Source: Actinomycetes bacterium
GTDB lineage: Bacteria > Actinomycetota > Acidimicrobiia > Acidimicrobiales > RAAP-2
DNA: 64,000 nt
Assembly: GCA_021806045.1 (NCBI GenBank)
Contig: JAJZDI010000012.1
Span: 1-64,000, forward strand
Direction: 5' to 3'
Shown: in pieces, positions 1,148 through 19,265 of the stretch
Position numbering within the stretch: position 1 is the first letter of the stretch
Layout: each line of letters starts with the position of its first letter
Made by a program: the position numbers and the translations under genes
The notes under the pieces: generated by a model
The model's input: the letters and a program-made list of their open reading frames with translations, nothing else
What the model was told of the DNA's origin: nothing
Database searches by the model: none

Positions 1148-2755
1148 CTAACCCCGCCGGACGAGCGAGCGGGCGAAGGTCTCGGAGGTGGCCAGGTCGG
1201 TCAGCAGGCGCACGCCGAAGCCGGTGGCGCCCTTGGCCAGGTACCGGGTCGACTCCGACGACCGGCCCGTGCCGGCGATATCGAGGTGTGCCCACGGCAC
1301 CACCCCGACGAACTCGGCCAGGAGCAGTGCCGCGGCGATGGTCCCCGCCTGGCCGGCCCGCCCCATGTTGCGCATGTCGGCCACGTCGGAGTCGATGTGG
1401 CTCCGGTACTCCTCGGGGAGCGGCAGCCGCCACACCCGCTCGCCGGCACGGCTGCCGGCAGCGGACACGTCGTCGGCCAGCCTGTCGTCGTTGGCCAGCA
1501 GCCCGGCGATCTCGTTCCCCAGCGCCACCACCACCGCACCCGTCAGGGTGGCGACGTCGATGATGGCGTCGGGCTCGGCCTCGGCCGCCAGCGAGAGGGC
1601 GTCGGCCAGGACCAGGCGGCCCTCGGCGTCGGTGTTCAGCACCTCGATGGTCTTGCCGTTGCGGGCCACCAGCACGTCGCCGGGCTTGGTGGCCCGCCCG
1701 CCCGGCATGTTCTCGGTCAACGGGGTGAGGGCCGTGATCCGCATGGGCGATCCCAGGGCGGCGGCGGCGTCGAGCGCGCACAGCACGGTGGCGGCACCGG
1801 CCATGTCGGTCTTCATCGTCTCCATGCCCGAGGGCGTCTTCAGGGAGAGCCCGCCGGAGTCGAACGTGATGCCCTTCCCCACCAGCACCAGATGGGGCAC
1901 CCGCCCATCGACCTCGATCGGGGTGGGGGGGGTGTGCTCGACGCGCAGCATCCGGGGGGGCTGGCTCGAGCCCCGCGACACGCCCAGCAGGCCGCCCAGG
2001 CGCTCCTCGGCGATCCGGTGCTCGTCCCACACCTCGACCGACATGGTGGGGTCGTCGCGGAACCGGCGGGTGAAGATCTCCACGAAACGCTGCGGCGTCA
2101 TCCGGCTGGGCGGCTCGTTGACCAGGTCCCGGGCCAGCATCACCGACTCGGCGATCCGGGCACCCCGGACGGCGCCGCCGGCCGCCACCACCGCCTCGGC
2201 CGGCGCTTCGGCCGTCACCACCAGGCGGGCCAGGCGGCCAGGCCGCTCCCCCGTCTTGTGCGTCTCGAACCGGTAACCGGCCAGCGCCCCCCCTACGGCG
2301 ACCGCCTGGGCCGCGGCGGCCACGTCCAGTCGGAGCTGGCGCGGCAGCAGCAGAGCGGCCGCCGTGCCCTCGCCCACCGTGCGGACGAAGGCGGCCGCCG
2401 CCCGCCGGAGCGTCTCCAGGCCCTGGTCGCCCACCAACGCGTCGGCCTCGCCCAGCCCGACGAGGACGGTCGAGGGTCGCGGACGGTCGTCGGTCCCCGG
2501 GCCGCCGGCGCCGAGGAGGGGCAGCCGTGACGTGGCCGAGGCGACGGGATGGAAGACGAGCGTCTGGCCCGGCTTGCCGGTGAAGCCCTGGCGCCGGCAC
2601 CACACCGGGTCGAGGACATCGGGAACGTCGGCACCGGCGATGTCAGCGGTCACCCCCGACGCGGGCTGCGGGCCCTCGGGTCCCTGGAAGACGGGGACCC
2701 CGACGGCCTCGAGATCCCCGGGGAGCCCGTAGGCGGATGCGCCCTCGACCTTCAT
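1148..2755 (-). CDS. pepA: Leucyl aminopeptidase (M17 family)
   Basis: This is a 535-residue cytosolic metallo-exopeptidase that releases N-terminal residues from peptides. The M17 signature NTDAEGRL is present near residue 373. The metal-binding stretch VGKGITFDSGG followed by MKTDMAGAA supplies the usual Lys and Asp ligands. The variable N-terminal macro-like domain and the C-terminal catalytic domain are both complete, and the length is normal for the family. The start codon overlaps the stop of the upstream adenosyltransferase gene by 4 bases (ATGA), which implies one transcript and coupled translation. Function is certain at family level; the physiological peptides are unknown. Confidence 0.93.
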   Translation of the reverse strand: MKVEGASAYGLPGDLEAVGVPVFQGPEGPQPASGVTADIAGADVPDVLDPVWCRRQGFTGKPGQTLVFHPVASATSRLPLLGAGGPGTDDRPRPSTVLVGLGEADALVGDQGLETLRRAAAAFVRTVGEGTAAALLLPRQLRLDVAAAAQAVAVGGALAGYRFETHKTGERPGRLARLVVTAEAPAEAVVAAGGAVRGARIAESVMLARDLVNEPPSRMTPQRFVEIFTRRFRDDPTMSVEVWDEHRIAEERLGGLLGVSRGSSQPPRMLRVEHTPPTPIEVDGRVPHLVLVGKGITFDSGGLSLKTPSGMETMKTDMAGAATVLCALDAAAALGSPMRITALTPLTENMPGGRATKPGDVLVARNGKTIEVLNTDAEGRLVLADALSLAAEAEPDAIIDVATLTGAVVVALGNEIAGLLANDDRLADDVSAAGSRAGERVWRLPLPEEYRSHIDSDVADMRNMGRAGQAGTIAAALLLAEFVGVVPWAHLDIAGTGRSSESTRYLAKGATGFGVRLLTDLATSETFARSLVRRG

Positions 2756-3375
2756 GTCGCCTCCTCACTGCCGCCGTCGTCGCTGCCGCCGTCGTCGGTG
2801 CTGGCCACGCCCCCGGTGCCACCGGCGCCACGAGGGCGGGTCCGGGCCAGGAGGTGCCGGTCTCCCTCGGCCCACCGGGCCATCGTCCACAACAGGTCGG
2901 AGAGCCGGTTCAGGTACCGGACGACCTCGGAGCCGGGCACGGGGTCGGTCACGGCCAGGCGTTCGGCCCGGCGCACCACCGTGCGGGCCACGTCCAGGCA
3001 GGCCGACATGCGGTTGGTCCCCGGCACGACGAACTCCGCCGGCAGCTCGAACCCGGCGAGGAGCTCGTCGATCCTCGCCTCGAGGGCGGCCACCATCTCG
3101 GGGGTGACCAGCGACGCGCCGGGCACCAGACGATCCCGGTTGGCCTCGTCGGTCGCCACCTCGGCCATGAGCACGTACAGGTCCCGCTCGAGCCCCACCA
3201 GCTCGACGTCGAACTCCGAGCCGGGAACGGCCTCGGCCCGGGCCATGCCGATGGCCGCCTGCGCCTCGTCGACGGCCCCGTTGATCTGCATGACGGCTGC
3301 GTCCTTGCGGACACGACCCCCGTAGAGGAGCCCTGTCGTGCCGTCGTCACCCGTCTTCGTGTAGATCCTCACCAC
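2752..3375 (-). CDS. pduO: Cob(I)alamin adenosyltransferase, PduO type
   Basis: The protein has 207 residues. It transfers the 5'-deoxyadenosyl group of ATP to cob(I)alamin to make adenosylcobalamin. The N-terminus carries the PduO ATP-binding motif (IYTKTGDDGTTGLLYGGR). The later RMSACLDVARTVVRRAER and LNRLSDLLW stretches match the family's trimer and cobalamin-contact helices. The gene is divergent from metH across only 87 bases and is followed by pepA with a 4-base overlap. Adenosylcobalamin would serve mutases such as ethylmalonyl-CoA mutase, whose pathway partners lie at 45-51 kb. The start is one of two tandem GTG codons. A TAGCAT box lies 7 bases upstream of a 5-codon mini-ORF that overlaps it. 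Confidence 0.92.
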   Translation of the reverse strand: MVRIYTKTGDDGTTGLLYGGRVRKDAAVMQINGAVDEAQAAIGMARAEAVPGSEFDVELVGLERDLYVLMAEVATDEANRDRLVPGASLVTPEMVAALEARIDELLAGFELPAEFVVPGTNRMSACLDVARTVVRRAERLAVTDPVPGSEVVRYLNRLSDLLWTMARWAEGDRHLLARTRPRGAGGTGGVASTDDGGSDDGGSEEAT

Positions 3376-3393
3376 GAGCGCATCACGTGCCGG

Positions 3394-3454
3394 ATGCTAG
3401 CCACCCGACGCCGCCGCCCGTCCGGAAGGAGTGGCAGCTCCGCGCCGGTAACCT
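3394..3454. promoter_or_regulatory. Divergent promoter region pduO / metH
   Basis: The 87-base gap between the two cobalamin genes holds a minus-strand TAGCAT (3394-3399) and a plus-strand TAACCT (3449-3454). The latter ends 8 bases before the metH ATG, which suggests a leaderless or almost leaderless metH transcript. There is no room for a cobalamin riboswitch on either side. Assignment is by motif only. Confidence 0.4.
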
Positions 3455-3462
3455 GGAACGCC

Positions 3463-6400
3463 ATGGCAACGCGCCCGTCCGGCCCGTCCGACTACCTCAC
3501 CGCCACCCGAGAGCGGGTGGTCGTGTTCGACGGCGCCATGGGCACCAATCTCCAGCTGGCCGGGCTCACCGCCGACGACTTCGGCGGGCCCGACCTCGAG
3601 GGTTGCAACGAGCTGCTGGTCGTCACCCGACCGGACGTGGTCGCCGCCATCCACCGGTCCTTCTTCGAGGTCGGGTGCGACGTCGTGGAGACCGACACCT
3701 TCGGCGCCTTCGCCCCGGTCCTCGCCGAGTACGGCCAGGACCACCGGGTGGAGGAGCTGAACCTGGCCGCCGCCCGGCTGGCCCGCTCGGTGGCCGACGA
3801 GTTCGCCACCGCCGAGCGCCCCCGGTGGGTGGCCGGGTCGATGGGCCCCGGCACCAAGTTCCCCACCCTCGGCCAGATCCGCTACGCCGAGCTGCGCGAC
3901 GCCTACCAGCAGCAGGCAGCCGCCCTCCTCGCCGGCGGCGTCGACCTCATCCTCATCGAGACGGTCTTCGACCTGCTCCAGGCCAAGGCGGCGGTGAACG
4001 GGGCCCGCCGGGCCATGGCCGCGTCCGGGCGGGCCGTGCCCATCCAGGCACAGGTCACCATCGAGCTGACCGGGACCATGCTCCCCGGCACCGAGATCGG
4101 TGCCGCGCTGACCTCCCTCGAGGCGATGGGCGTGGACCTCGTCGGGCTCAACTGCGCCACCGGTCCGGCCGAGATGTTCGAACCGCTCCGGCACCTGACC
4201 GGGCACACCACACTGCCGGTGACGTGCCTCCCCAATGCCGGGTTGCCGTCGGTCGTCGACGGCGCCATGCACTACGACCTGACCCCGGACCAGCTGGCCG
4301 AGCACCATCGCCAGTTCGTCAGCGAGCTCGGCGTCTCGGTCATCGGCGGCTGCTGCGGCACGACACCCGCGCACCTGGCAGCCGTCGTCGACGCCTGCGC
4401 CGAGCTGACCCCGGCCACCCGCAGCCCGGCCATCGAGCCGGGTGCCGCGTCCATCTACACGGCGGTTCCCTTCGCCCAGGAGTCGTCCGTGCTGGTGGTG
4501 GGCGAGCGGACCAACGCAAACGGGTCGAAGAAGTTCCGCGAGGCCATGCTGGCCGGCGACTGGGACACGTGCGTGGCGATGGCCCGCGACCAGGTGGCCG
4601 AAGGCTCCCACCTCATCGACGTCTGCGTCGACTACACGGGTGCCGACGGCGTGTCCGACATGGACCAGCTCGTCGCCCGGCTGGCCACCCAGTCGACCGT
4701 GCCCCTCATGGTCGACTCCACCGAGGCGCCGGTGGTCGAGACCGCGCTCTCCTGGATCGGCGGGCGTGCGGTGATCAACTCGGTGAACCTCGAGGAAGGG
4801 GACGGACCCGGCACCCGCCTCGATTCGTTCCTCACCCTGGCCCGGGAGTTCGGCGCCGCGGTGGTGTGCACCTGCATCGACACCGAAGGCCAGGCCCGCA
4901 CGGCGGACTGGAAGGTGCGGGCCGCCCGGGCCATCCACGACATCGCCGTCGAGCGCTACGGGCTCCGCCCCGAGGACCTGCTCTTCGACCCCCTCGTCCT
5001 TCCCCTGTCCACCGGCATGGAGGAGAGCCGCCGCGACGGGATCGAGACGATCGAGGGCATCCGGCGCATCAAGGAGGCGCTGCCCGGCGTGGGGACCATC
5101 GTCGGCCTGTCGAACGTCTCCTTCGGGTTGAACCCGGCCGCTCGCCAGGTCCTCAACTCGGTCTTCCTGCACGAGTGCGCCGAGGCCGGCCTCGACGCCG
5201 CCATCGTCCACGCGTCGAAGATCCTTCCCCTGTCCCGGATCGACGAGCGCGCCCGGCAGGTCTGCCTCGACCTCATCTACGACCGGCGGACCGACACCTA
5301 CGACCCCCTGGCTGAGCTGCTCACCATGTTCGAGGGAGCCAGTACGACCCAGGCGGCAGCGGCCGAGGACCGGTCCGACTGGCCCGTAGAGCGCCGCCTC
5401 GAGCAGCGGATCGTCGACGGCGACCGCAACGGCCTCGAAGCAGACCTCGATGCGGCCATGGCCGCCGGCCACCGGCCCCTCGACATCGTCAACGACATCC
5501 TCCTGGCCGGCATGCGCACGGTCGGCGAGCTGTTCGCGTCCGGCGAGATGCAGCTCCCCTTCGTCCTCGGCTCGGCGGAGACGATGAAGTCCGCCGTCGC
5601 CCACCTCGAGCCCTTCATGGAGAAGGCCGATCAGGGGGGCAAGGGCTCGATCGTGCTGGCCACGGTGAAGGGCGACGTCCACGACATCGGCAAGAACCTG
5701 GTCGACATCATCCTCACCAACAACGGCTACACGGTGCACAACCTCGGCATCAAGGTCGGCATCGCCGAGATGGTGGCGGCGGTGGAGGAGCACGGGGCCG
5801 ACGCGTTGGGGATGAGCGGCCTGCTGGTGAAGTCGACGCTCATCATGCGGGAGAACCTGGAGGAGCTGAACCGGCGGGAGCTGTCGTCGGTGCCGGTGAT
5901 CCTGGGTGGTGCCGCCCTGACCCGCACCTATGTCGAACGCGACCTGCGCGGCGTCTACAGCGGGCCCCTCTTCTACGGCAAGGACGCCTTCGAGGGGTTG
6001 GCCACCATGGACCGGCTGGTCGAGCTGAAGCGGGCTGGCGAGGTGGACCCGGAGTTCGGCCGCACCCCGGCCGGACGCGACCTGCCCATGCGCAAGAGCG
6101 AGCAGCGCCGGCTGGCGGCGGCCGAGGCCGCCGCCCGGGGCGAGACCCTGCCGGCCCGCTCGCCCGAAGTGCCGATGGACAACAAGCTGTTCCCCCCGCC
6201 CTTCACCGGGAGCCGGGTCGCCCGGGGCATCGCACTCGACGACATCGCCGCCTTCCTCAACGAGACGGCGCTGTTCCGGAACCAGTGGGGCTACCGCCCC
6301 GAAGAGGGCGAGGACGACACCGAGTTCAAGACGCGCATCCGGTCGGTGCTGCGCGAGCAGCTGGCCGAGGCGAAGGCGGCCCAGCTCCTCGTGCCCCAAG

Positions 6401-6972
6401 TGGTCTGGGGTCACTTCGCCGCCAATGCCGACGGCGACGACCTCGTCATCTACAAGGACGAGGGCCGCCAGGCGGAGTGGATGCGCTTCACCTTCCCCCG
6501 CCAGGTGGTCGAGCCGTGGTTGTGCATCGCCGACTTCTTCCGCCCGGTCGAGTCGGGCGAGCACGACTGGGCCAGCTTCTTCGTGGTCACCATGGGGGGG
6601 CGGGTCTCCGAGGAGACCGCCCGCCTCTTCGCCGCCGACCGCTACCAGGACTACCTCCACCTCCACGGGTTGGGGGTCGAAATGGCCGAAGCCCTGGCCG
6701 AGTACTGGCACCTGCGCATCCGCGAGGAGCTCGGTTTTGCCGGCGAGGACGGGCCGAGCCTCGGCGGCCTCTTCCGGCAGCAGTACCGGGGCGGGCGCTA
6801 CTCCTGGGGCTATCCCGCCTGCCCCGACCTGGAGGACAACGCCAAAGTGGCCGAGCTCCTGGGCGCCGACCGGATCGGGGTCGAGGTGAGCGACGGCTTC
6901 CAGCTCCACCCGGAACAGACGACCACGGCCATCGTGTGCCACCACCCCCGGGCCAAGTACTTCGTCGCATGA
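3463..6972 (+). CDS. metH: Cobalamin-dependent methionine synthase
   Basis: The protein has 1169 residues, close to the usual ~1200. It transfers the methyl group of methyltetrahydrofolate to homocysteine through protein-bound cobalamin. Domains in order: homocysteine-binding TIM barrel (VFDGAMGTNLQ at the start; zinc cysteines in GLNCATG near 230 and GGCCGTT near 296), pterin-binding barrel (VVGERTNANGSKKF; DSTE), cobalamin cap and Rossmann domain (DVHDIGKN near 737, whose His is the lower axial ligand), and C-terminal AdoMet reactivation domain (RYSWGYPACPD). The ATG is preceded by TAACCT rather than a good Shine-Dalgarno. The open frame extends far upstream, but the upstream part has no MetH similarity. 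It overlaps the next gene by ATGA. Confidence 0.97.
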   Translation: MATRPSGPSDYLTATRERVVVFDGAMGTNLQLAGLTADDFGGPDLEGCNELLVVTRPDVVAAIHRSFFEVGCDVVETDTFGAFAPVLAEYGQDHRVEELNLAAARLARSVADEFATAERPRWVAGSMGPGTKFPTLGQIRYAELRDAYQQQAAALLAGGVDLILIETVFDLLQAKAAVNGARRAMAASGRAVPIQAQVTIELTGTMLPGTEIGAALTSLEAMGVDLVGLNCATGPAEMFEPLRHLTGHTTLPVTCLPNAGLPSVVDGAMHYDLTPDQLAEHHRQFVSELGVSVIGGCCGTTPAHLAAVVDACAELTPATRSPAIEPGAASIYTAVPFAQESSVLVVGERTNANGSKKFREAMLAGDWDTCVAMARDQVAEGSHLIDVCVDYTGADGVSDMDQLVARLATQSTVPLMVDSTEAPVVETALSWIGGRAVINSVNLEEGDGPGTRLDSFLTLAREFGAAVVCTCIDTEGQARTADWKVRAARAIHDIAVERYGLRPEDLLFDPLVLPLSTGMEESRRDGIETIEGIRRIKEALPGVGTIVGLSNVSFGLNPAARQVLNSVFLHECAEAGLDAAIVHASKILPLSRIDERARQVCLDLIYDRRTDTYDPLAELLTMFEGASTTQAAAAEDRSDWPVERRLEQRIVDGDRNGLEADLDAAMAAGHRPLDIVNDILLAGMRTVGELFASGEMQLPFVLGSAETMKSAVAHLEPFMEKADQGGKGSIVLATVKGDVHDIGKNLVDIILTNNGYTVHNLGIKVGIAEMVAAVEEHGADALGMSGLLVKSTLIMRENLEELNRRELSSVPVILGGAALTRTYVERDLRGVYSGPLFYGKDAFEGLATMDRLVELKRAGEVDPEFGRTPAGRDLPMRKSEQRRLAAAEAAARGETLPARSPEVPMDNKLFPPPFTGSRVARGIALDDIAAFLNETALFRNQWGYRPEEGEDDTEFKTRIRSVLREQLAEAKAAQLLVPQVVWGHFAANADGDDLVIYKDEGRQAEWMRFTFPRQVVEPWLCIADFFRPVESGEHDWASFFVVTMGGRVSEETARLFAADRYQDYLHLHGLGVEMAEALAEYWHLRIREELGFAGEDGPSLGGLFRQQYRGGRYSWGYPACPDLEDNAKVAELLGADRIGVEVSDGFQLHPEQTTTAIVCHHPRAKYFVA

Positions 6973-9584: not shown

Positions 9585-10709
9585 TCAGGGATCGACGACG
9601 ACGAGCGAGCGGTCCGCCCCGTTGATGGACCGCCCGGTTCCATCAGGGTCGATGACGACGATGTCCTCCAGGCGCATGCCGAAACGACCCGGCTCGTAGA
9701 TGCCCGGTTCGATCGAGAAGGCATTCCCCGGGACGAGCACCTCCGGGTTGCCGGCCACCAGGTACGGGTCCTCGTGCTCCTCGACCCCGATGCCGTGCCC
9801 GGTGCGGTGGACGAAGCGGGCCCCGAAGCCGGCCTCGTCGATCACCGACCGGGCGGCCGCGTCGACGGCCGACGCCACCACGCCGGCCCGCGCCGTTGCA
9901 CGCCCTGCCGCCTGCGATGCCGCCAGCGCCTCGTAGCGGACGAGCACGTCGGCGGTGGGCTCGCCCACCGACAGCGTGCGGGTGATGTCCGAGCAGTACC
10001 CCGCGCCACTCGCCAGCGACAGGGTGCCGCCGAAGTCGCACACCACCGTGTCGCCGGCCACGATGACACGGTCGGTGGGCTCGTGGTGGGGGCTGGCCCC
10101 GTTGGGGCCCGAGGCGACGATGGCGAAGTTCACCCGCTGGTGACCCTCCTCGACCAGCCGGCGCCCGATGTCCGCGGCCACCTGGCGCTCGGTGCGCCCA
10201 CCCACCGGGATGGCACCGGACTGCAGGTCGGCGGCCACCCGGTCGGCGGAGGCCGCCGCGGCTTCGAGTGCGGCGATCTCGCTCGCATCCTTCACGGCAC
10301 GCACGGGGCCCGTCACCGTCGATGCCGGCGACCACCGGGCACCGGGCAACCGGTCCTGGAGGGCGAGGAGAGGCGCCGCCCACATCCGGTCCGACACGGC
10401 GAACGAACCGCGCCGGTCGGGCAGGGCCGCCGCCACCAGCTCGATGGGGTCCTCGTCCTCGGACCAGGCCCGCACCCCGGCCAGCTCCCGGGTCAAGGCC
10501 GGCACCCGGGGCTCCTCCAGCAGCGGGACGACGAGGAGGGGCTCGGAGGCGAGCGGGATGACCAGCATCGTCAGCCGCTCCAGGGGCATCGCCTCGTAGC
10601 CGGTCAGCCAGGGCAGGTCGGCCCCGAGGGACAGGAGGAGCGCGTCGATGCGAGCCACCTCCATGCCGGCCCGGACCCTCGCCAGGCGGGTGCCCTCCGC
10701 TGCCGTCAT
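9585..10709 (-). CDS. M24-family metallopeptidase (Xaa-Pro dipeptidase/aminopeptidase type)
   Basis: The protein has 374 residues, starting with ATG overlapping the lipoyl-synthase stop (ATGA). The N-terminal creatinase-like domain (WLTGYEAMPLERL) is followed by a pita-bread catalytic domain. Metal ligands are recognisable: Asp in VVCDFGG, Asp in SDITRTL, His in HRTGHGIG, Glu in SIEPGIY and Glu in MRLEDIVV. The enzyme would cleave N-terminal residues next to proline in the cytosol. It is the last gene of the lpdA-sucB-lipBA transcript, though it has no obvious metabolic link to lipoate. Exact specificity (PepQ or PepP) cannot be told. Confidence 0.88.
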   Translation of the reverse strand: MTAAEGTRLARVRAGMEVARIDALLLSLGADLPWLTGYEAMPLERLTMLVIPLASEPLLVVPLLEEPRVPALTRELAGVRAWSEDEDPIELVAAALPDRRGSFAVSDRMWAAPLLALQDRLPGARWSPASTVTGPVRAVKDASEIAALEAAAASADRVAADLQSGAIPVGGRTERQVAADIGRRLVEEGHQRVNFAIVASGPNGASPHHEPTDRVIVAGDTVVCDFGGTLSLASGAGYCSDITRTLSVGEPTADVLVRYEALAASQAAGRATARAGVVASAVDAAARSVIDEAGFGARFVHRTGHGIGVEEHEDPYLVAGNPEVLVPGNAFSIEPGIYEPGRFGMRLEDIVVIDPDGTGRSINGADRSLVVVDP

Positions 10710-12403
10710 CCCGGTGACCCCACCGTGGGCCGGCCCGCCAGCGCGCCCGGTGCCAACCCGGCCGCTGCGGCCGCCTCCGCCGCGTGATGGCTCGACCGGG
10801 TGAGCGGTGTCGCCTGGACGTGGGCGAACCCCATCTCCCGTCCAGCCCGGGCCAGTGCTGCCAGCTCGTCGGGGTGCCACCATCGGGCCACCGGCAGGTT
10901 GGCCGGGCCCGGCCGGAGGTACTGGCCGACGGTCAGCAGCGACACGCCGACGGCCCGCAGGTCGGCCATGGTGGCCAGGACCTCGTCCTCGTCCTCCCCC
11001 ATGCCGACGATGATCCCCGACTTCGTCACCACGCCGGTGCGGGCGGCCCGGGCCAAGACGGTCAGGCTGCGGGCGTACCCGGCCGATGGCCGTACCGCCC
11101 GCTGGAGGCGGGCGACCGTCTCGATGTTGTGGTTGAGGACGTCCGGGCCGGCGTCGAGGACCCGGGCCAGCGCGTCGGGGTCCCCCCGCATGTCGGACAC
11201 GAGGACCTCGACCGTCACTCCCGGGGCCTTCCGGCGGATGGCGGCGATGGTCTCGGCGAAGGCGCCGGCGCCACCGTCGGCGAGGTCGTCACGGGCGACA
11301 CACGTCACCACCGCGTGGGCAATGCCCATGGCGGCCACCGCGTCGGCGACCCGGTCGGGCTCCCCCGGGTCGAGCGGCTGCGGCCGCCCCGTGTCGACCT
11401 GGCAGAAGGCGCACGAGCGCGTGCAGCGGTCGCCGTTGATCATGAACGTCGCCGTGCCCTCCGCCCAGCATTCGAAGATGTTGGGACACCCGGCCTCTTC
11501 GCACACGGTGACGAGCGACCGCTGCTGCAGGTCACGCCGCAGGGGGAGGAAGGAGCCGGTCGTACGGGCGGGGACCCGCAACCACGGTGGCTTCCGCTGC
11601 GAGATCGGCAGCCCGGCACCGGGATCGATCCCCGCACGCGCCATGCGCCGCCCCAGGGCGACGGGCACGGCGTCCGGGGGCACGGCGTCCGGGGGGACGG
11701 CACTGGGGGGGAGCGGGACGGGCTGGCGCCCACGGACCTCGCCGGCGGCTCCCACCACCCGCTGGACATCGAGGGCAGGGGTGCCGGCGCCCAGCGCACC
11801 GGATGCGGCGACCACGGCGTCGACGAGCTCGTCCATGGTCACGTCGAGGCCTTCGGCCCGCAGCGAGGTGACGGGCATGTCCGAGATCCCGCACGGCACG
11901 ATGTGGCCGAACATCGACAGGTCGACGTCGACGTTGCAGGCGAAGCCGTGGGTGGTCCGGCCGCGGGCGGTACGGACACCCACGGCGGCGATCTTGCGGG
12001 GGCGGTCGCCGTCGGCCCCGATCCACACCCCCGGGTAGCCGTCCAGCCGCCCGACGGACCCCGAGCCGATCCCCACGGCCACCAGCGCGTCGATGACCAG
12101 TTGCTCCACCCGGTGGACGTGGGCAGGACCCTGGTGGGGGCCGGGCGGCACCGTCATGATCGGGTAGCCGACCAGTTGCCCGGGACCGTGGTAGGTCACG
12201 TCGCCGCCGCGGTCCACCTCCACCAGATCGGCGCCCACCGCTGACGGATCCACGAGAACGTGGGTCCGATCGGCATGGGCACCGAGCGTGTAGACGTGCG
12301 GGTGCTCGAGGAGGAGGAGGTAGTCGTCCGCGCCGGCTGCTAGGGCCCGCTGCAGGTCCCACGCCTCCCGGTAGGGGACGCGGCCCAACCACCGGACCCT
12401 CAC
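10706..12403 (-). CDS. lipB-lipA: Bifunctional octanoyltransferase / lipoyl synthase (LipB-LipA fusion)
   Basis: One uninterrupted frame of 565 codons encodes both lipoylation steps. Residues 1-215 are LipB: GGDVTYHGPGQL, Lys in RPRKIAAVG (~135) and the acyl-carrying Cys in GFACNVD (~154). Residues 215-245 are a Pro/Val/Ala linker with a repeated PPDAV. Residues 250-565 are LipA: auxiliary cluster CX4CX5C (CEEAGCPNIFEC, ~300), radical-SAM CX3CX2C (CTRSCAFC, ~326) and RSSHHA near 535, the usual RSSYxA element. LipB moves octanoate from ACP to E2 or GcvH; LipA inserts two sulfurs. GTG at 12403 starts RVRWLGRVPY, typical of LipB. No Shine-Dalgarno precedes the only plausible internal LipA start (ATG at 11644). 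Confidence 0.9.
   Translation of the reverse strand: MRVRWLGRVPYREAWDLQRALAAGADDYLLLLEHPHVYTLGAHADRTHVLVDPSAVGADLVEVDRGGDVTYHGPGQLVGYPIMTVPPGPHQGPAHVHRVEQLVIDALVAVGIGSGSVGRLDGYPGVWIGADGDRPRKIAAVGVRTARGRTTHGFACNVDVDLSMFGHIVPCGISDMPVTSLRAEGLDVTMDELVDAVVAASGALGAGTPALDVQRVVGAAGEVRGRQPVPLPPSAVPPDAVPPDAVPVALGRRMARAGIDPGAGLPISQRKPPWLRVPARTTGSFLPLRRDLQQRSLVTVCEEAGCPNIFECWAEGTATFMINGDRCTRSCAFCQVDTGRPQPLDPGEPDRVADAVAAMGIAHAVVTCVARDDLADGGAGAFAETIAAIRRKAPGVTVEVLVSDMRGDPDALARVLDAGPDVLNHNIETVARLQRAVRPSAGYARSLTVLARAARTGVVTKSGIIVGMGEDEDEVLATMADLRAVGVSLLTVGQYLRPGPANLPVARWWHPDELAALARAGREMGFAHVQATPLTRSSHHAAEAAAAAGLAPGALAGRPTVGSPG
11675..11712 (-). repeat. 15-bp tandem repeat in the LipB-LipA linker
   Basis: Near-identical 15-base units encode successive PP(S/D)AV pentapeptides in the interdomain linker. 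Slippage here would lengthen or shorten the linker in frame without touching either catalytic domain. Confidence 0.6.
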
Positions 12404-12434: not shown

Positions 12435-13784
12435 TCAGAGCTCGGCCGCCCAGTCCCGCTCGGCGAGCAGGCTCGCCACCCGGGCCAGGAACCGAGCGAC
12501 GTAGGCACCGTCCACGGCGCGGTGGTCGAAGGTGGCGGCGAGCAGTCCGACCGAGTGGATGGCGATGGCCTCGCTGCCGTCAGCGGCCTCGATCACGACC
12601 GGTTTGCGGGACACCCCGTCCGTCGAGAGGATCGCCACCTGGGGCTGGTTGATGATGGCTCCCGTGATGAGCGTCCCGAACGGTCCGGCATTGGTGATCG
12701 AGAACGTCCCACCCGAGATGTCGTCGGCGCTCAGGCGCCTGGCCCGGGCCCGGTCGGCAAGATCGCGGATACGGCGTGCCATGCCGCGGAGGGTCAGTTC
12801 CTCGGCGTGGTGCACCACGGGCACGATGAGGCCCTCGTTGTCCAGATCGACGGCGATGCCGAGGTGGACGTCGCGGTGGACGATGAGTGCGTCGTCACCG
12901 ACCGACGCGTTCAGGTGCGGGAACTCCGCCAGCGCCTCGACGGTGGCCCGCGCCGCGAACGGCAGGTAGGTGAGGTTGAACCCCTCCTCGTCGGCGAACC
13001 GGCGGCCGTGCTCCCGGCGCACCTGCTCGACCCGCTCGTAGTCGGCCTCCTTCACCATGAGGGTGTGGGCTGAGGTCGCCTTGGAGCGCACCATGTGCTC
13101 CGCCGTCCGCCGGCGGATGTTGCTGAAGGGGACGATCTCGTCCCGACCCGACACGACGGTGGCCGGCGGGGGGGGCGCCGGGACGGCCGGGGCGATGGGG
13201 GCTGCCGGGGCCGTGCCCGGTGCCGGTGCCGCGCCCGCTGCAGCCTCGACGTCTTCGCGGGTGATCCGGCCCCCGACGCCGGTGCCGGGGATGGAAGCGG
13301 CATCGAGCCCGTGGTCGGCGATCAGCTTGCGGACCATGGGCGACAGCACGGTGCCGGCTGGTGCCGGCACCGCTGCGACCTGCGGCGCCGGCGGTGCCGG
13401 GGGAGCAGGAACGGGTGCCGGGGGCACCACGGGGGTGGCCGCTGGCGCCGGAGGTGGTGTGGGAGGGGCGGCCTCGGCTGCCGGTACAGATGCCGGTGCG
13501 GCTGCCGGTGCCGCTTCGGCCGGGGCCGGTGCCGGCTCGGGCGCCTCGGCACTGTCGCCGATCACGGCCAGGCGGGTGCCGACGTCGACCGTGTCGCCCT
13601 CGGCGACGAGGATCTCCGCCAGCACGCCCGACGCCGGTGCCGGGACCTCGGAGTCGACCTTGTCGGTCGACACCTCGAACAACGGCTCGTCCCGGGCGAC
13701 CTGGTCGCCGACGGCCTTGAACCAGCGGGTGACCGTTCCTTCGGTCACGGTCTCGCCCAGCTGCGGCATCGTCACGTCAGCCAA
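12435..13784 (-). CDS. sucB: Dihydrolipoamide acyltransferase (E2) of a 2-oxoacid dehydrogenase
   Basis: The protein has 449 residues. It has a single N-terminal lipoyl domain with the lipoyl-lysine in STDKVDSEV (~42) and a long Ala/Pro linker. A peripheral-subunit-binding domain follows (VRKLIADHGLDAASIPGTG), then a second Ala/Pro linker and a catalytic acyltransferase domain ending in DHRAVDGAYVA with the active His and Asp. It carries acyl groups from E1 to CoA. It overlaps lpdA (E3) by 8 bases and is 31 bases before lipB-lipA, which makes its cofactor. With aceE just across the locus, pyruvate dehydrogenase E2 is likely. Actinobacterial SucB-type E2 can be shared between complexes, so the symbol is provisional. 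Confidence 0.9.
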   Translation of the reverse strand: MADVTMPQLGETVTEGTVTRWFKAVGDQVARDEPLFEVSTDKVDSEVPAPASGVLAEILVAEGDTVDVGTRLAVIGDSAEAPEPAPAPAEAAPAAAPASVPAAEAAPPTPPPAPAATPVVPPAPVPAPPAPPAPQVAAVPAPAGTVLSPMVRKLIADHGLDAASIPGTGVGGRITREDVEAAAGAAPAPGTAPAAPIAPAVPAPPPPATVVSGRDEIVPFSNIRRRTAEHMVRSKATSAHTLMVKEADYERVEQVRREHGRRFADEEGFNLTYLPFAARATVEALAEFPHLNASVGDDALIVHRDVHLGIAVDLDNEGLIVPVVHHAEELTLRGMARRIRDLADRARARRLSADDISGGTFSITNAGPFGTLITGAIINQPQVAILSTDGVSRKPVVIEAADGSEAIAIHSVGLLAATFDHRAVDGAYVARFLARVASLLAERDWAAEL

Positions 13785-15264
13785 CGTGGAGCCCCCTTCC
13801 GGTCAGGGCGAGGACCGTCTCGCCGAACGTCTCGGACAGCGACGGATGGGGCTGGACGAAGCGGGCCACCTCGTCAGGCGTCGCCTCCCAGTTGACCGCC
13901 AGGTAGCCGGCCCCCAGCTGTTCGGTCACCCACGGCCCGGCCATGTGGACGCCGAGGATGCGACCGGCCGACCCGTCCGGCCGGCGCTCGGCGATCACCT
14001 TGACCAGCCCGTCCGTCTCGCCGATGATCCGTGCCCGGCTGTTGCCCCCGAAGGGGTCCTTCTTCACGACCACGTCGATTCCGGCGGCGCGGGCCGCCGC
14101 CTCGGTCATCCCCGCGTAGGCCACCTCGGGATGGCAGTAGATCGCCCACGGGACGGCGCCGTAGTCGACCGGGGTGACCGGTTCGCCCAGCATCGAGCGG
14201 ATGGCGACAATCGCCTCGGCGAAGCCGACGTGGGCCAGCTGCGGGGTGCCCGCCACCACATCTCCCACCGCCCACACGCCCGGCTCGCCGGTGCGCATGT
14301 AGGCGTCGGCCACGACGAACCCCCGCTCGTCGACGACCACACCCGTGCCCGGCTCCACCAGCCCGTCGGACCGGGGCCGGCGGCCGACCGAGACCACGAC
14401 GGCCTCCACCGTCACCTGACCGCCCTCACCGAACGAGACCACCGTGCCCCCGCCCCCGGGAACAGGGGTGTGGCCGGTGACCTGGACCCCGGTGTGGACG
14501 TCGATCCCCCGCTTGCGGAACGACCGGGCGACCACGGCGGCGGCGTCCTCGTCGCACCCGGCCAGGATGGTGGGAAGCGCCTCGAGGACGGTCACCGATG
14601 CCCCCAGGTCGGAGAACATGGAGGCGAACTCGCAGCCGATCGCACCGCCACCGATCACGGCGACCGACGCCGGCACGTGCTCGAGGTCGAGCACCTCGTC
14701 GGACGTGAGCACGACGGTGCCGTCCACCTCGAAGCCCGGGATGGTGCGGGGAAGCGAACCGGCGGCCAGGACGACGTTGGCTCCTTCGAGCTCGCTGGTC
14801 GAACCGTCGGCGGCCGTCACCCGCACCCGCCGGCCGGGGAGGAGGGTGCCCGTCCCGGGGACGATCGTGATGCCACGTCCCTTCATCAGGCCCGACAGCC
14901 CGCGGAAGAGCTGGTCCACGACCTGTTGCTTGCGCTGCTGGCTCACCTCGAAGCGCACCTCGGGGGACGGGTCGCCCGCAGCCGGCCCGATGCCGAACGT
15001 CGACGCCCCGGCGACCGCCCGGCGGACGGTCGCCGTCTCGAGGAATTCCTTGGCCGGCACGCAGCCCCGGTGGAGGCAGGTGCCGCCGACCTTGTCGAGC
15101 TCAAGCACGGCGACGTCGAGCCCGGCGGCCGCCCCGTAGAGCGCAGTGGCGTACCCACCCGGTCCACCGCCGATCACGACGACGTCGAACGCCGTCCGTT
15201 TCGAACCGCTGTCCCCCCCCGATGTCCTGCCCTCACCTGCGCCATCGGGTGTCGTCCGAATCAC
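13777..15264 (-). CDS. lpdA: Dihydrolipoyl dehydrogenase (E3)
   Basis: The protein has 495 residues. This FAD enzyme reoxidises the dihydrolipoyl group of E2 with NAD+. VVVIGGGPGGYATALYG binds FAD. The redox disulfide is in GGTCLHRGCVPAKE (Cys ~63 and ~68). VIGGGAIGCEFA is the NAD-binding site, and the C-terminal HPSLSET supplies the catalytic His-Glu pair. The chosen GTG has GGAG 8 bases upstream, and a TAGAGT promoter box lies about 40 bases ahead. This gives a 25-residue hydrophilic N-terminus before FAD; a later start is possible but no in-frame ATG exists. It is the first gene of lpdA-sucB-lipBA-M24. Confidence 0.94.
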   Translation of the reverse strand: MIRTTPDGAGEGRTSGGDSGSKRTAFDVVVIGGGPGGYATALYGAAAGLDVAVLELDKVGGTCLHRGCVPAKEFLETATVRRAVAGASTFGIGPAAGDPSPEVRFEVSQQRKQQVVDQLFRGLSGLMKGRGITIVPGTGTLLPGRRVRVTAADGSTSELEGANVVLAAGSLPRTIPGFEVDGTVVLTSDEVLDLEHVPASVAVIGGGAIGCEFASMFSDLGASVTVLEALPTILAGCDEDAAAVVARSFRKRGIDVHTGVQVTGHTPVPGGGGTVVSFGEGGQVTVEAVVVSVGRRPRSDGLVEPGTGVVVDERGFVVADAYMRTGEPGVWAVGDVVAGTPQLAHVGFAEAIVAIRSMLGEPVTPVDYGAVPWAIYCHPEVAYAGMTEAAARAAGIDVVVKKDPFGGNSRARIIGETDGLVKVIAERRPDGSAGRILGVHMAGPWVTEQLGAGYLAVNWEATPDEVARFVQPHPSLSETFGETVLALTGRGLHVG

Positions 15265-15304
15265 CTCCGTAGCTCCGGCGACCGCGCTGGGGCCGCGCCG
15301 GTCC

Positions 15305-15310
15305 ACTCTA
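15305..15310 (-). promoter_or_regulatory. Candidate -10 box of the lpdA-sucB-lipBA operon
   Basis: TAGAGT on the minus strand would start transcription about 34 bases before the lpdA GTG. A GGAG ribosome site lies in between. Motif evidence only. Confidence 0.35.
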
Positions 15311-15385
15311 ACGGGGGCGCACCGATGGTGGCAGCGGCCGGCCCGGTCCCGACCACCCCGGGTCGGGCAGGTCACCCGAGCCCGA

Positions 15386-16547: not shown

Positions 16548-19265
16548 ATGGCTCCAGTGCTCTTCGACGGTGTGAGCAACCAGCTTCCTGACAGCGACAC
16601 CAGCGAGACGTCCGAATGGCTGGCGGCGTTCGACGACGTCGTCGACGTCCACGGACGCACCCGGGCCCGCTACCTGTTGCTCCGGCTGCTGGAACGGGCG
16701 GCGGCCCGCCACGTCGAGTTCCCCGCCAGCGTCTCCACGCCCTACGTCAACACCATCCCCACCTCCCAGGAGCCCGAGTTCCCCGGGGACGAGCACCTCG
16801 AGCGGCGGATCCGCGCCTACATCCGGTGGAACGCGGCGGTGATGGTCACCCGGGCCAACATGCGCTCCGATGCCATCGGCGGGCACCTCTCGACCTACGC
16901 CAGCTCCGCCGCGCTCTACGAGGTCGGCTTCAACCACTTCTTCCGGGGCAAGGACGCCCCCGGTGGCGGTGACCAGGTCTTCTTCCAGGGTCACGCATCA
17001 CCGGGCATGTACGCCAGGGCCTTCGTCGAGGGGCGCCTGAGCGAGACGGAGCTGGACAACTTCCGCTTCGAGGTCGGGGGCGACGGCCTGGCCTCCTACC
17101 CCCATCCGCGGCTGATGCCCGACTTCTGGGAGTTCCCCACCGTCTCGATGGGGCTCGGCCCCATGAACGCCATCGCCCAGGCCCACGTCAACCGGTACCT
17201 GGCGGCCAGGGAGGTGGCGCCGTCGGGTGAGGGCCGCGTGTGGTGCTTCGTCGGCGACGGCGAGTTCGACGAGCCGGAGACGACCGGGGCCCTCGGCCTC
17301 GCCGGCCGTGAGCACCTCGACAACCTGACCTTCGTGGTGAACTGCAACCTCCAGCGCCTGGACGGTCCTGTGCGGGGCAACGGCAAGGTGATCCAGGAGT
17401 TCGAGGCCCTCTTCCGCGGCAACGGCTGGAACGTGATCAAGGTGATCTGGGGACGGGGCTGGGACAGGCTGCTCGCCCGTGACGTCGACGGCGTCCTCCT
17501 CGACAAGATGAACACGACGGTGGACGGCGAGTTCCAGAAGTACGCGACGGAGTCCGGCGCCTACATCCGTGAGCACTTCTTCGGCCCCGACCCCCGCCTG
17601 GCCACCATGGTGGCCGACCTGAGCGACGAGGAGCTCCAGGCCCTGCCGAGGGGTGGCCACGACTACCTGAAGCTGTACGCCGCCTACCGGGCCGCCGTCG
17701 AGCACCGGGGAGCGCCGACGGCCATCCTGGCCAAGACGATCAAGGGGTGGACGCTCGGGCCCGAGATCGAGGCCCGGAACGCCACCCACCAGATCAAGAA
17801 GATGTCGCGCGACCAGCTCCGGACCCTGCGTGACCGCCTCCACCTCCACGAGGAGATCCCCGAGAGCGCGCTCGACGCCGACGACCCTCCCTACTACCGG
17901 CCGCCGCCCGGGTCGGACGCGGCCCGCTACCTGGCCGAGCGGCGGCAGGCGCTGGGCGGCCCGCTCCCCCGGCGGGTGGTGCGCACCCGGCCGATCGATC
18001 CTCCCGACGCCAAGGCGTTCGCCGAGCTCCTGTCCGGATCGGGCGCCCAGGCGGCATCCACCACCATGGCGTTCGCACGCCTGCTGCGGGGCCTCGTGCG
18101 TGATCCGACCATCGGCCCCCGGGTGGTGCCCATCGTGCCCGACGAGGCCCGCACCTTCGGGCTCGAGTCGCTGATCAGCCAGGTGGGGATCTATGCGGTG
18201 GGCGGGCAGCGCTACACGCCGGTCGACGCCGGCCTGCCGCTCCACTACGCGGAGAGCGAGACGGGCCAGATCCTCGAGGAGGGGATCACCGAGGCAGGGG
18301 CGACGGCGGCGTTCACCGCCCTGGCCACGTCGTACGCCACCTGGGGGGAGTCGACCATCCCCTTCTACCTCTTCTACTCGATGTTCGGCTTCCAGCGGGT
18401 GGGGGACCTGCTGTGGGCGCTCGGCGACATCCGGGGCCGGGGGTTCCTGCTCGGCTGCACGGCGGGGCGGACCACGCTGAACGGCGAGGGCCTCCAGCAC
18501 CAGGACGGGCACTCGCTCGTGCTGGCCTCGGTGATCCCGAGCGTCGCCGCCTACGATCCCGCGTTCGCCTACGAGATCGCCGTGATCGTCGAAGACGGCA
18601 TCCGCCGCATGCTGGGGCCAGACGGCGAGGACCGGGTCTGGTACCTCACCCTCTACAACGAGAACTACGTCATGCCGTCGCTGCCGGAGGACCCGGCCGA
18701 GGCGGCCCGGGTGCGCACGGGGATCGTGGACGGCCTCTACCGCTACGAGCCGCCCCCCGACGCGGCGGGACCCACCGCGTCGGTCCTGTTCTCCGGGACC
18801 GCATGGCAGGCCGCCGTCGAGGCGCGGCAGCTCCTGGCCGGCGACTGGGGGGTGGCGGTGGACACATGGTCGGTGACCTCCTACAAGGCCCTCCGGGAAC
18901 AGGCGCTGTCGGTGGAGCGCTGGAACCGCCTCCACCCCGGTGACGAGCCCCGAGTCCCACTGGTGACCTCGGCGCTGGCGGCGACGTCCGGTCCGGTGGT
19001 GGCCGTCACCGACTTCATGCGGGCCGTTCCCGACCAGGTCGCCCGCTTCGTCGGCCGTCCGTTCACCTCGCTCGGCACCGACGGCTTCGGCCGCTCCGAC
19101 ACCCGCCCCGCGCTGCGCCGCTTCTTCGAGACCGACGCCGCCCACATCGCCGTCGCCGTGCTCGCCGGTCTGGCCGGCCAGGGCCTCCTCGACCGGTCGG
19201 TCGTGAGCGAGGCGATCGCCCGCTACGGCGTCGAGCCCGAGCGGGCGGACCCCTGGGGGGCGTGA
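16548..19265 (+). CDS. aceE: Pyruvate dehydrogenase E1 component, homodimeric
   Basis: The protein has 905 residues, normal for AceE. It decarboxylates pyruvate with thiamine diphosphate and reductively acetylates the E2 lipoyl group. The ThDP/Mg motif is GDGEFDEPETTG (~237) ending in FVVNCNLQ. The N-terminal TIPTSQEPEFPGDEHLERRIR and the central EEGITEAGA and YYMFG-like stretch (FYLFYSMFGFQR) match the E. coli-type enzyme. Its E2 and E3 partners lie on the opposite strand 3 kb away, and thiE, for thiamine phosphate, follows on the same strand. It starts 144 bases from rnhA with a weak GGGTGG ribosome site. Confidence 0.96.
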   Translation: MAPVLFDGVSNQLPDSDTSETSEWLAAFDDVVDVHGRTRARYLLLRLLERAAARHVEFPASVSTPYVNTIPTSQEPEFPGDEHLERRIRAYIRWNAAVMVTRANMRSDAIGGHLSTYASSAALYEVGFNHFFRGKDAPGGGDQVFFQGHASPGMYARAFVEGRLSETELDNFRFEVGGDGLASYPHPRLMPDFWEFPTVSMGLGPMNAIAQAHVNRYLAAREVAPSGEGRVWCFVGDGEFDEPETTGALGLAGREHLDNLTFVVNCNLQRLDGPVRGNGKVIQEFEALFRGNGWNVIKVIWGRGWDRLLARDVDGVLLDKMNTTVDGEFQKYATESGAYIREHFFGPDPRLATMVADLSDEELQALPRGGHDYLKLYAAYRAAVEHRGAPTAILAKTIKGWTLGPEIEARNATHQIKKMSRDQLRTLRDRLHLHEEIPESALDADDPPYYRPPPGSDAARYLAERRQALGGPLPRRVVRTRPIDPPDAKAFAELLSGSGAQAASTTMAFARLLRGLVRDPTIGPRVVPIVPDEARTFGLESLISQVGIYAVGGQRYTPVDAGLPLHYAESETGQILEEGITEAGATAAFTALATSYATWGESTIPFYLFYSMFGFQRVGDLLWALGDIRGRGFLLGCTAGRTTLNGEGLQHQDGHSLVLASVIPSVAAYDPAFAYEIAVIVEDGIRRMLGPDGEDRVWYLTLYNENYVMPSLPEDPAEAARVRTGIVDGLYRYEPPPDAAGPTASVLFSGTAWQAAVEARQLLAGDWGVAVDTWSVTSYKALREQALSVERWNRLHPGDEPRVPLVTSALAATSGPVVAVTDFMRAVPDQVARFVGRPFTSLGTDGFGRSDTRPALRRFFETDAAHIAVAVLAGLAGQGLLDRSVVSEAIARYGVEPERADPWGA

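Follow-up and report, generated by a model that had tools for sequence, protein, structure and literature searches.

Assembly of the lipoyl cofactor involves two steps that are usually treated as the work of separate enzymes. In a stretch of 64,000 nucleotides from an Acidimicrobiia genome (Actinomycetes bacterium, assembly GCA_021806045.1, contig JAJZDI010000012.1, positions 1 to 64,000; in the following the window), a single reading frame, lipBA, appears to cover both, an octanoyltransferase (LipB) domain being followed by a lipoyl synthase (LipA) domain. The locus raises the question whether the two enzymes are indeed joined in one polypeptide, how widespread such a protein is, and what the joining might bring. 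In excerpts of two publications (PMC9307952, PMC12246082), LipB is described as taking octanoate from acyl carrier protein (ACP) onto its own cysteine and passing it to a lipoyl-domain lysine, and LipA as adding two sulfurs. The gene is composed of the following parts, given with the evidence for each.

10706..12403, minus strand: lipBA fusion gene, 565 codons plus TGA, GTG start (translation, Pfam, NCBIfam, class-wide frame)
11759..12403, minus strand: LipB (octanoyltransferase) domain, residues ~1-215 (PF21948, TIGR00214, PRK14345)
11995-11993, minus strand: K137 of the presumed LipB dyad (invariant in 141 of 141 class rows)
11893-11891, minus strand: C171 of the presumed LipB dyad (invariant in 141 of 141 class rows)
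11657..11758, minus strand: linker, residues ~216-249, with PPSAV-PPDAV-PPDAV (predicted local distance difference test, pLDDT, below 50 at residues 220-246)
11663..11692, plus strand: perfect direct tandem repeat of 15 nt in the linker, PPDAV twice (sequence)
10754..11656, minus strand: LipA (lipoyl synthase) domain, residues ~250-550 (TIGR00510, PRK12928, PRK05481)

The coordinates of lipBA had been given correctly, with no strand named, in an earlier interpretation made from the letters alone (the sequence-only reading). Its central claim, that LipB and LipA are one polypeptide encoded in an operon with E2 and E3 of a 2-oxoacid dehydrogenase, was borne out and is strengthened by the fused frame found throughout the class. 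A single stop-free frame spans both domains, here and in relatives. It ends with TGA at 10708-10706 on the minus strand and most likely starts with GTG at 12403-12401, which yields 565 aa; the frame stays open back to a GTG at 12508. Third-position GC content of the linker (0.89) is coding-like when compared with LipB (0.91) and LipA (0.93). Judged from these sequences, lipBA very probably specifies one bifunctional octanoyltransferase/lipoyl synthase acting on E2 and GcvH.

The LipB half belongs to TIGR00214 lipB with 124.6 bits (cut-off 83.55) and was also matched by PF21948 LplA-B_cat (128.8 bits, cut-off 27) and PRK14345 (186.6 bits, cut-off 155). H72, K137, and C171 are invariant in alignments of 60 rows and of 141 rows of class fusions, the latter containing some loci that are one gene fetched twice. 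K137 and C171 are taken to be the catalytic dyad. The catalytic cysteine had been placed at ~154, probably meaning C156 of 'FACN', a position occupied by Leu in 123 and by Cys in four of the 141 class rows; C171, found in every row, has to replace it. Matches in the PDB were 1w66 over residues 2-202 and 2qhs over 4-202, and the LipB half of an AlphaFold2 model superimposed on 2qhs (Z 28.4, root mean square deviation (rmsd) 1.7, 198 aligned) and 1w66 (Z 28.3, 196 aligned). Thus, the complete domain, the Lys/Cys dyad, the HGPGQ motif, and the fold (Z ~28) are shared with LipB octanoyltransferases (TIGR00214; M. tuberculosis 1w66, 2qhs). Unlike these, the window protein runs on C-terminally into LipA, and its LipB part has no stop codon of its own.

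For the LipA half, 324.3 bits with TIGR00510 lipA (cut-off 310.25) place it in this family, and PF04055 Radical_SAM scored 69.1 bits (cut-off 29.5). The motifs typical of LipA were all detected: CX4CX5C of the auxiliary cluster (C301/C306/C312), CX3CX2C of the radical S-adenosylmethionine (SAM) cluster (C327/C331/C334), and a C-terminal RSS (R536-S537-S538). All six cluster cysteines are invariant in the 60 rows and in 141 of 141 class rows; R536 is present in 140 and S537 and S538 in 139 of the latter, the remainder being gaps. The PDB entry 5exi was matched over residues 248-544, and the model aligned to 5exk_I with Z 42.8 (rmsd 1.7, 294 aligned). Both cluster motifs, RSS, and a fold similarity of Z ~43 are common to this part and to LipA (TIGR00510; M. 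tuberculosis 5exi/5exj/5exk, human LIAS 8ugo), from which it differs in being preceded by a LipB domain. The predicted activities follow the domain order: N-terminal LipB would accept octanoate from octanoyl-ACP on C171 and pass it to the lysine in the lipoyl domains of E2 and GcvH; C-terminal LipA, a radical-SAM enzyme with two 4Fe-4S clusters, would then add sulfur to this octanoyl-lysine at C6 and C8.

Thirteen NCBIfam families match the lipBA protein and none of them describes LipB-LipA, which leaves an annotation gap for this architecture. The nearest in kind is NF053790 LplA_LipA_fuse, a bifunctional lipoate-protein ligase/lipoyl synthase, which likewise carries an acyl-attaching enzyme N-terminal to LipA; by its name, that enzyme is the ligase LplA, whereas the window protein has LipB. 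With 336.8 bits (cut-off 800) over profile positions 331-605 of 606, the window protein is not a member of NF053790. A description of a LipB-LipA fusion was not found in full-text literature searches, whose reach excluded most subscription papers and UniProt. Automated records of LipB-LipA may exist in UniProt, perhaps under automatic names such as 'multifunctional fusion protein'. Fusion of an acyl-attaching enzyme to LipA is thus already known, and LipB-LipA is a variant of that kind, apparently new.

One frame across the Acidimicrobiia

Matches to lipBA were detected in 57 of 61 near genomes and, in a sample of the class, in 275 of 296 genomes at E 1e-20 or better. Fusions were counted solely from full-span rows without stop or from translated loci, as the open-frame length of the search reads through stops. 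Under this rule 222 of the 275 genomes were resolved, and all 222 have the LipB-LipA junction in one frame; the tally leaves aside 51 single-match genomes and two undecided ones (G239, G329), in which the match begins at a contig end. In two of the 222 (G261, locus L247 at G261:C1:767500-771000, and G257, locus L250 on contig C13), a frameshift follows later, inside LipA, reflecting either an assembly error or a broken gene.

The rows listed for single-match class genomes, 150 in number, all extend from query residue 4 or less to at least 544; 116 are free of stops and 34 have one. Translation revealed that these 34 are all fused and stop-free across both domains: L030, L037, L040, L056, and L060, and 29 others, in which the stop is at the gene end. 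The 74 class genomes with at least two matches all matched again when searched with a profile built from 60 fusions. Here, 30 loci were fused on translation and nine further rows span both domains stop-free, while translation of 31 further genomes gave 29 fusions, some cut by contig ends, and the two undecided cases. A fused copy (L253) was obtained from G110 and a fused fragment (L251) from G199. A 5-kb contig of G110 carries in addition another lipB-lipA pair, which is divergent and unfused (L248; G110:C83, 1-3501) and represents either contamination or a gene acquired from elsewhere. The fusion is also kept in small class genomes of 0.7-1.1 Mb, many of them incomplete (genus code g95; L200-L207, L273-L285).

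Among 80 loci from named records, 34 contain fusions, 33 assigned to the class of the window and one, L124, from Pelosinus. Titles of fusion records include Acidimicrobiia, Acidimicrobiales, Acidimicrobiaceae, Acidimicrobium, Ferrithrix, and Ca. Microthrix, besides unspecific ones (Actinobacteria, Actinomycetes, Actinomycetota, bacterium) and Acidobacteria (L128). In a LipA tree, L094, L103, and L107, whose titles read Acidimicrobiia, Acidimicrobiales, and Acidimicrobium, are placed among the class fusions. L115 had been a candidate for separate genes; its LipA match ran past the terminal stop, and the translation is one frame. L128 ('Acidobacteria bacterium isolate ATN3') was not counted as a third origin because it has exactly the match statistics of L198/G065 of the window's class; it is probably a misnamed genome.

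A second origin and unfused pairs

In L124 (Pelosinus fermentans UBA6563; Negativicutes), LipB and LipA are also in one frame, with almost no linker. Of 100 Pelosinus relatives, the genome of L124 included, 26 match. One locus was translated in each of ten: eight are fused (L208-L214, L217), and these are taken as Negativicutes because they were chosen as relatives of Pelosinus. The other two loci (L215, L216; genomes G623, G640), tried as fusions, are two genes. In the genome of L124, one contig (G608:C27, 56615-115557) carries three lipB-lipA pairs within ~60 kb, of which just one proved to be fused.

A LipA tree of 80 rows, calculated with a quick method, contains two changes of state between unfused and fused. 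The 33 class fusions lie on one side of a branch with a Shimodaira-Hasegawa-like approximate likelihood ratio test (SH-aLRT) value of 87, not starred, and eight Pelosinus-type fusions are likewise set apart by a branch with 99, starred. Forcing all fusions into a single clade costs 61.2 log-likelihood units and is rejected by the approximately unbiased (AU) test (p = 1.45e-05). By these sequence comparisons, the LipB-LipA fusion is the product of two independent events; a single origin within the class is favoured by the tree, not firmly supported. Pelosinus-type fusions (L124, L208-L214, L217) share with the window protein the domain order and E2/E3 upstream (E3 in 8/8 fused loci, E2 in 7/8, the eighth being cut short); in L209, the upstream genes look like E1-beta, E2, and E3. 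They differ in their separate origin, in having almost no linker, and in a predicted template modelling score (pTM) of 0.59 versus 0.89.

In a sample of the phylum, 245 of 296 genomes match, 27 of them class members; the three listed rows from other classes that span almost the whole of both domains all contain stops and are all two genes. No fusion was present among 24 loci of other Actinomycetota examined (20 chosen plus four). In these, lipB is located directly upstream of lipA in eight, ~0.9 kb upstream in one, and on the far side in three, and 12 have no lipB match nearby. Given the eight direct neighbours, the precursor was likely an adjacent lipB-lipA pair. Such pairs (Actinomycetota; loci titled Anaerolineae, Aliifodinibius, Myxococcota, and Opitutia) have the gene order of lipBA, from which they differ by stop codon(s) or another frame between the genes. 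Outside Actinomycetota, G818 (L254), from the phylum of G612, shows the precursor order elsewhere, with a gene for an E2-like lipoyl protein followed by separate lipB and lipA; its match of 605.8 bits, spanning and with one stop, had made it a fusion candidate. G610 and G611 were likewise dismissed, stops between the genes being apparent on translation. No fusion was detected in the phylum of G612 (matches in 179 of 188 genomes; one spanning row among the matches listed, with a stop) or in that of G611 (129 of 151 match; two spanning rows among the matches listed, with stops, G992 being judged by stop count alone). Among plasmid records, comparison of annotations in 10 of 214 rows, six of the ten without annotated feature, gave no fused one.

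In the class, the fusion would most likely have originated a single time, at the root of Acidimicrobiia, when the stop separating adjacent lipB and lipA was lost. The ancestral setting would have been an E3-E2-lipB-lipA operon, and the fusion would have been retained since.

Linker, internal starts and the possible benefit of joining

The sequence-only reading described the linker as built from PPDAV repeats. The repeats are real, forming a 15-nt tandem pair, but they are a local oddity; as they are absent from the copy of the same genus (L005), they probably arose by a recent duplication that the linker tolerates. The stretch bounded by residues 205 and 252 varies from 24 to 77 aa (median 40.5) in the 60 rows and from 14 to 86 aa in the 141 rows. 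A piece resembling DLSxFSRGxGPG recurs in the linker (e.g. L026, L037, L053; DLSxFSRGEGPG), and the pattern F[STAV]RG is present in 24 of 60 and 57 of 141 rows.

Two explanations would do away with the single chain or add to it. According to one, a stop between two genes is masked by a sequencing or assembly error, for which the draft state of the source genome, 43 contigs, could be quoted. Yet independent genomes of dozens of family groups have this frame open as well, the single-contig assemblies G038, G042, G062, G073, and G086 among them. The single frame of lipBA is not an assembly error, the hidden stop considered from the outset is excluded, and a residual chance for it is vanishingly small; conservation of the fused frame across the class also excludes a chance open frame. 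According to the other, translation also begins inside the gene, near 11644, and yields free LipA besides the fusion. An in-frame ATG (M254) is indeed located at the domain boundary, and ATG, GTG, or TTG occurs in the linker of 60/60 rows, as it does in almost all control windows of the GC-rich gene. However, position 254 holds Met in just 16 of the 141 class rows, against Leu in 108, and a conserved start codon within the linker was sought in the 60- and 141-row alignments and not found. In-frame linker starts preceded by a Shine-Dalgarno-like sequence, counted in 27 of 60 rows, show no excess over the 10-36 of eight control windows. A supplementary LipA product is therefore quite improbable, and since LipB lacks its own stop, the fusion would be made even with an internal start.

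More weight has to be given to an explanation that shares the bifunctional chain and differs solely on its benefit, namely neutral collapse of an operon fixed by drift, with both activities retained, no handover or docking, and domains acting as if alone. It fits a linker that is variable in length and predicted to be disordered, uninformative covariation between the domains, and precursors in the form of direct lipB-lipA neighbours that are common outside the class (8/24 loci). Against it stand the retention of the fusion in 222/222 resolved class genomes, assemblies of ~1 Mb included, the convergent joining of these two enzymes, likewise with LipB first, in relatives of Pelosinus, and the pTM of 0.89. 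Its chance is close to even. A real kinetic handover of octanoyl-E2 from LipB to LipA is a plausible if tentative proposal, somewhat less likely than not.

How such a handover might work is suggested by the model. The AlphaFold2 prediction of the window protein (32 rows; pLDDT 88.1, pTM 0.89) suggests confident relative placement of the LipB and LipA domains and gives a hint that they dock in Acidimicrobiia; for L124, pLDDT was 88.8 and pTM 0.59. In an excerpt of PMC12246082, residues 66-110 of human LIAS are described as a belt that flanks the interface with the H-protein on one side. LIAS 67-365 (8ugo_A) aligns with model residues 262-551, and as the belt aligns from ~262 on, LipB should hang by a short tether from the acceptor-holding segment of LipA. 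By this homology, LipB may be tethered to an N-terminal LipA segment wrapping the lipoyl-domain acceptor, and the octanoylated domain would meet LipA at once; the joining would also fix a LipB:LipA ratio of 1:1. A fixed geometry with a shared acceptor-docking surface, in which the octanoylated domain swings straight to LipA with no release from the protein, and a comparable solution in Pelosinus relatives, appears rather doubtful.

Several points weigh against a functional coupling of this kind and against parts of the evolutionary scenario. The wide variation in linker length argues against a precise channel. The comparison of pTM values is confounded, the alignment for L124 consisting mostly of non-cognate Acidimicrobiia rows and pTM having been read without coordinates or predicted aligned error. 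Interdomain pairs make up 94 of the top 200 covarying pairs (0.47; mutual information with average product correction, 141 rows, effective number 112), not above the expected 0.483. The unfused pairs L215 and L216 also have E2 and E3 upstream, so that this setting is not specific to fusions. The single origin in the class has the support of 87, not starred, in a quick tree, scores of some of the 51 genomes set aside (G146, G232, G242) fit part of the protein alone, and the bifunctional enzyme is known here from sequence and model.

A class-wide fusion that evolved twice would argue, as a natural experiment, that LipB and LipA work in close proximity on a common acceptor. The fusion also offers a ready single-chain construct with which both enzymes could be captured together with a lipoyl domain and handover measured, and lipBA may be usable as one lipoylation gene in engineered cells.

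Gene neighbourhood

The genes surrounding lipBA are the following.

9585..10709, minus strand: M24 metallopeptidase (PF00557, PF01321); its ATG overlaps the lipBA stop (ATGA)
12435..13784, minus strand: E2 of a 2-oxoacid dehydrogenase with lipoyl, E3-binding, and catalytic domains (PF00364, PF02817, PF00198)
13777..15375, minus strand: E3, dihydrolipoyl dehydrogenase (TIGR01350, 430.4 bits, cut-off 408.8; PF07992 from residue 63)
16548..19265, plus strand: aceE, homodimeric pyruvate dehydrogenase E1 (TIGR00759, 1283.7 bits, cut-off 859.9)

The E2 stop is 31 bp ahead of the lipBA start, and the E3 and E2 genes overlap by 8 bp. With TIGR02927, E2 reached 420.7 bits, just below the cut-off of 423.45. 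Because the domain of E3 begins at residue 63 of the open reading frame, its real start is probably near 15200. The nearby aceE, noticed before, is confirmed; lying on the other strand with its start ~4 kb off, it is divergent from E3-E2-lipBA and not part of the same operon. Across 34 named loci, made up of the 33 class fusions plus L122 (on a contig that starts within LipA), E2 is the next gene upstream in 23, and E3 is present in 29.

The E2 of the operon carries a lipoyl domain. The source genome (97.5% complete) contains one LipA match, that in lipBA, and one GcvH, which is encoded on another contig. Therefore, the fusion cannot serve the E2 of its operon exclusively and should supply the sulfur step for all lipoyl clients. 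A second, weak protein of the LplA/LipB fold (L003; G000:C39:99270-99749) with 37.4 bits and the motif RRRSGGGAVW reached 25.8 bits with NCBIfam LplAB (cut-off 550) and is possibly a lipoate or other acyl ligase. Farther away in the window, at 2737-6972, a long open reading frame presumably specifies a cobalamin-dependent methionine synthase (MetH), which its translation resembles.

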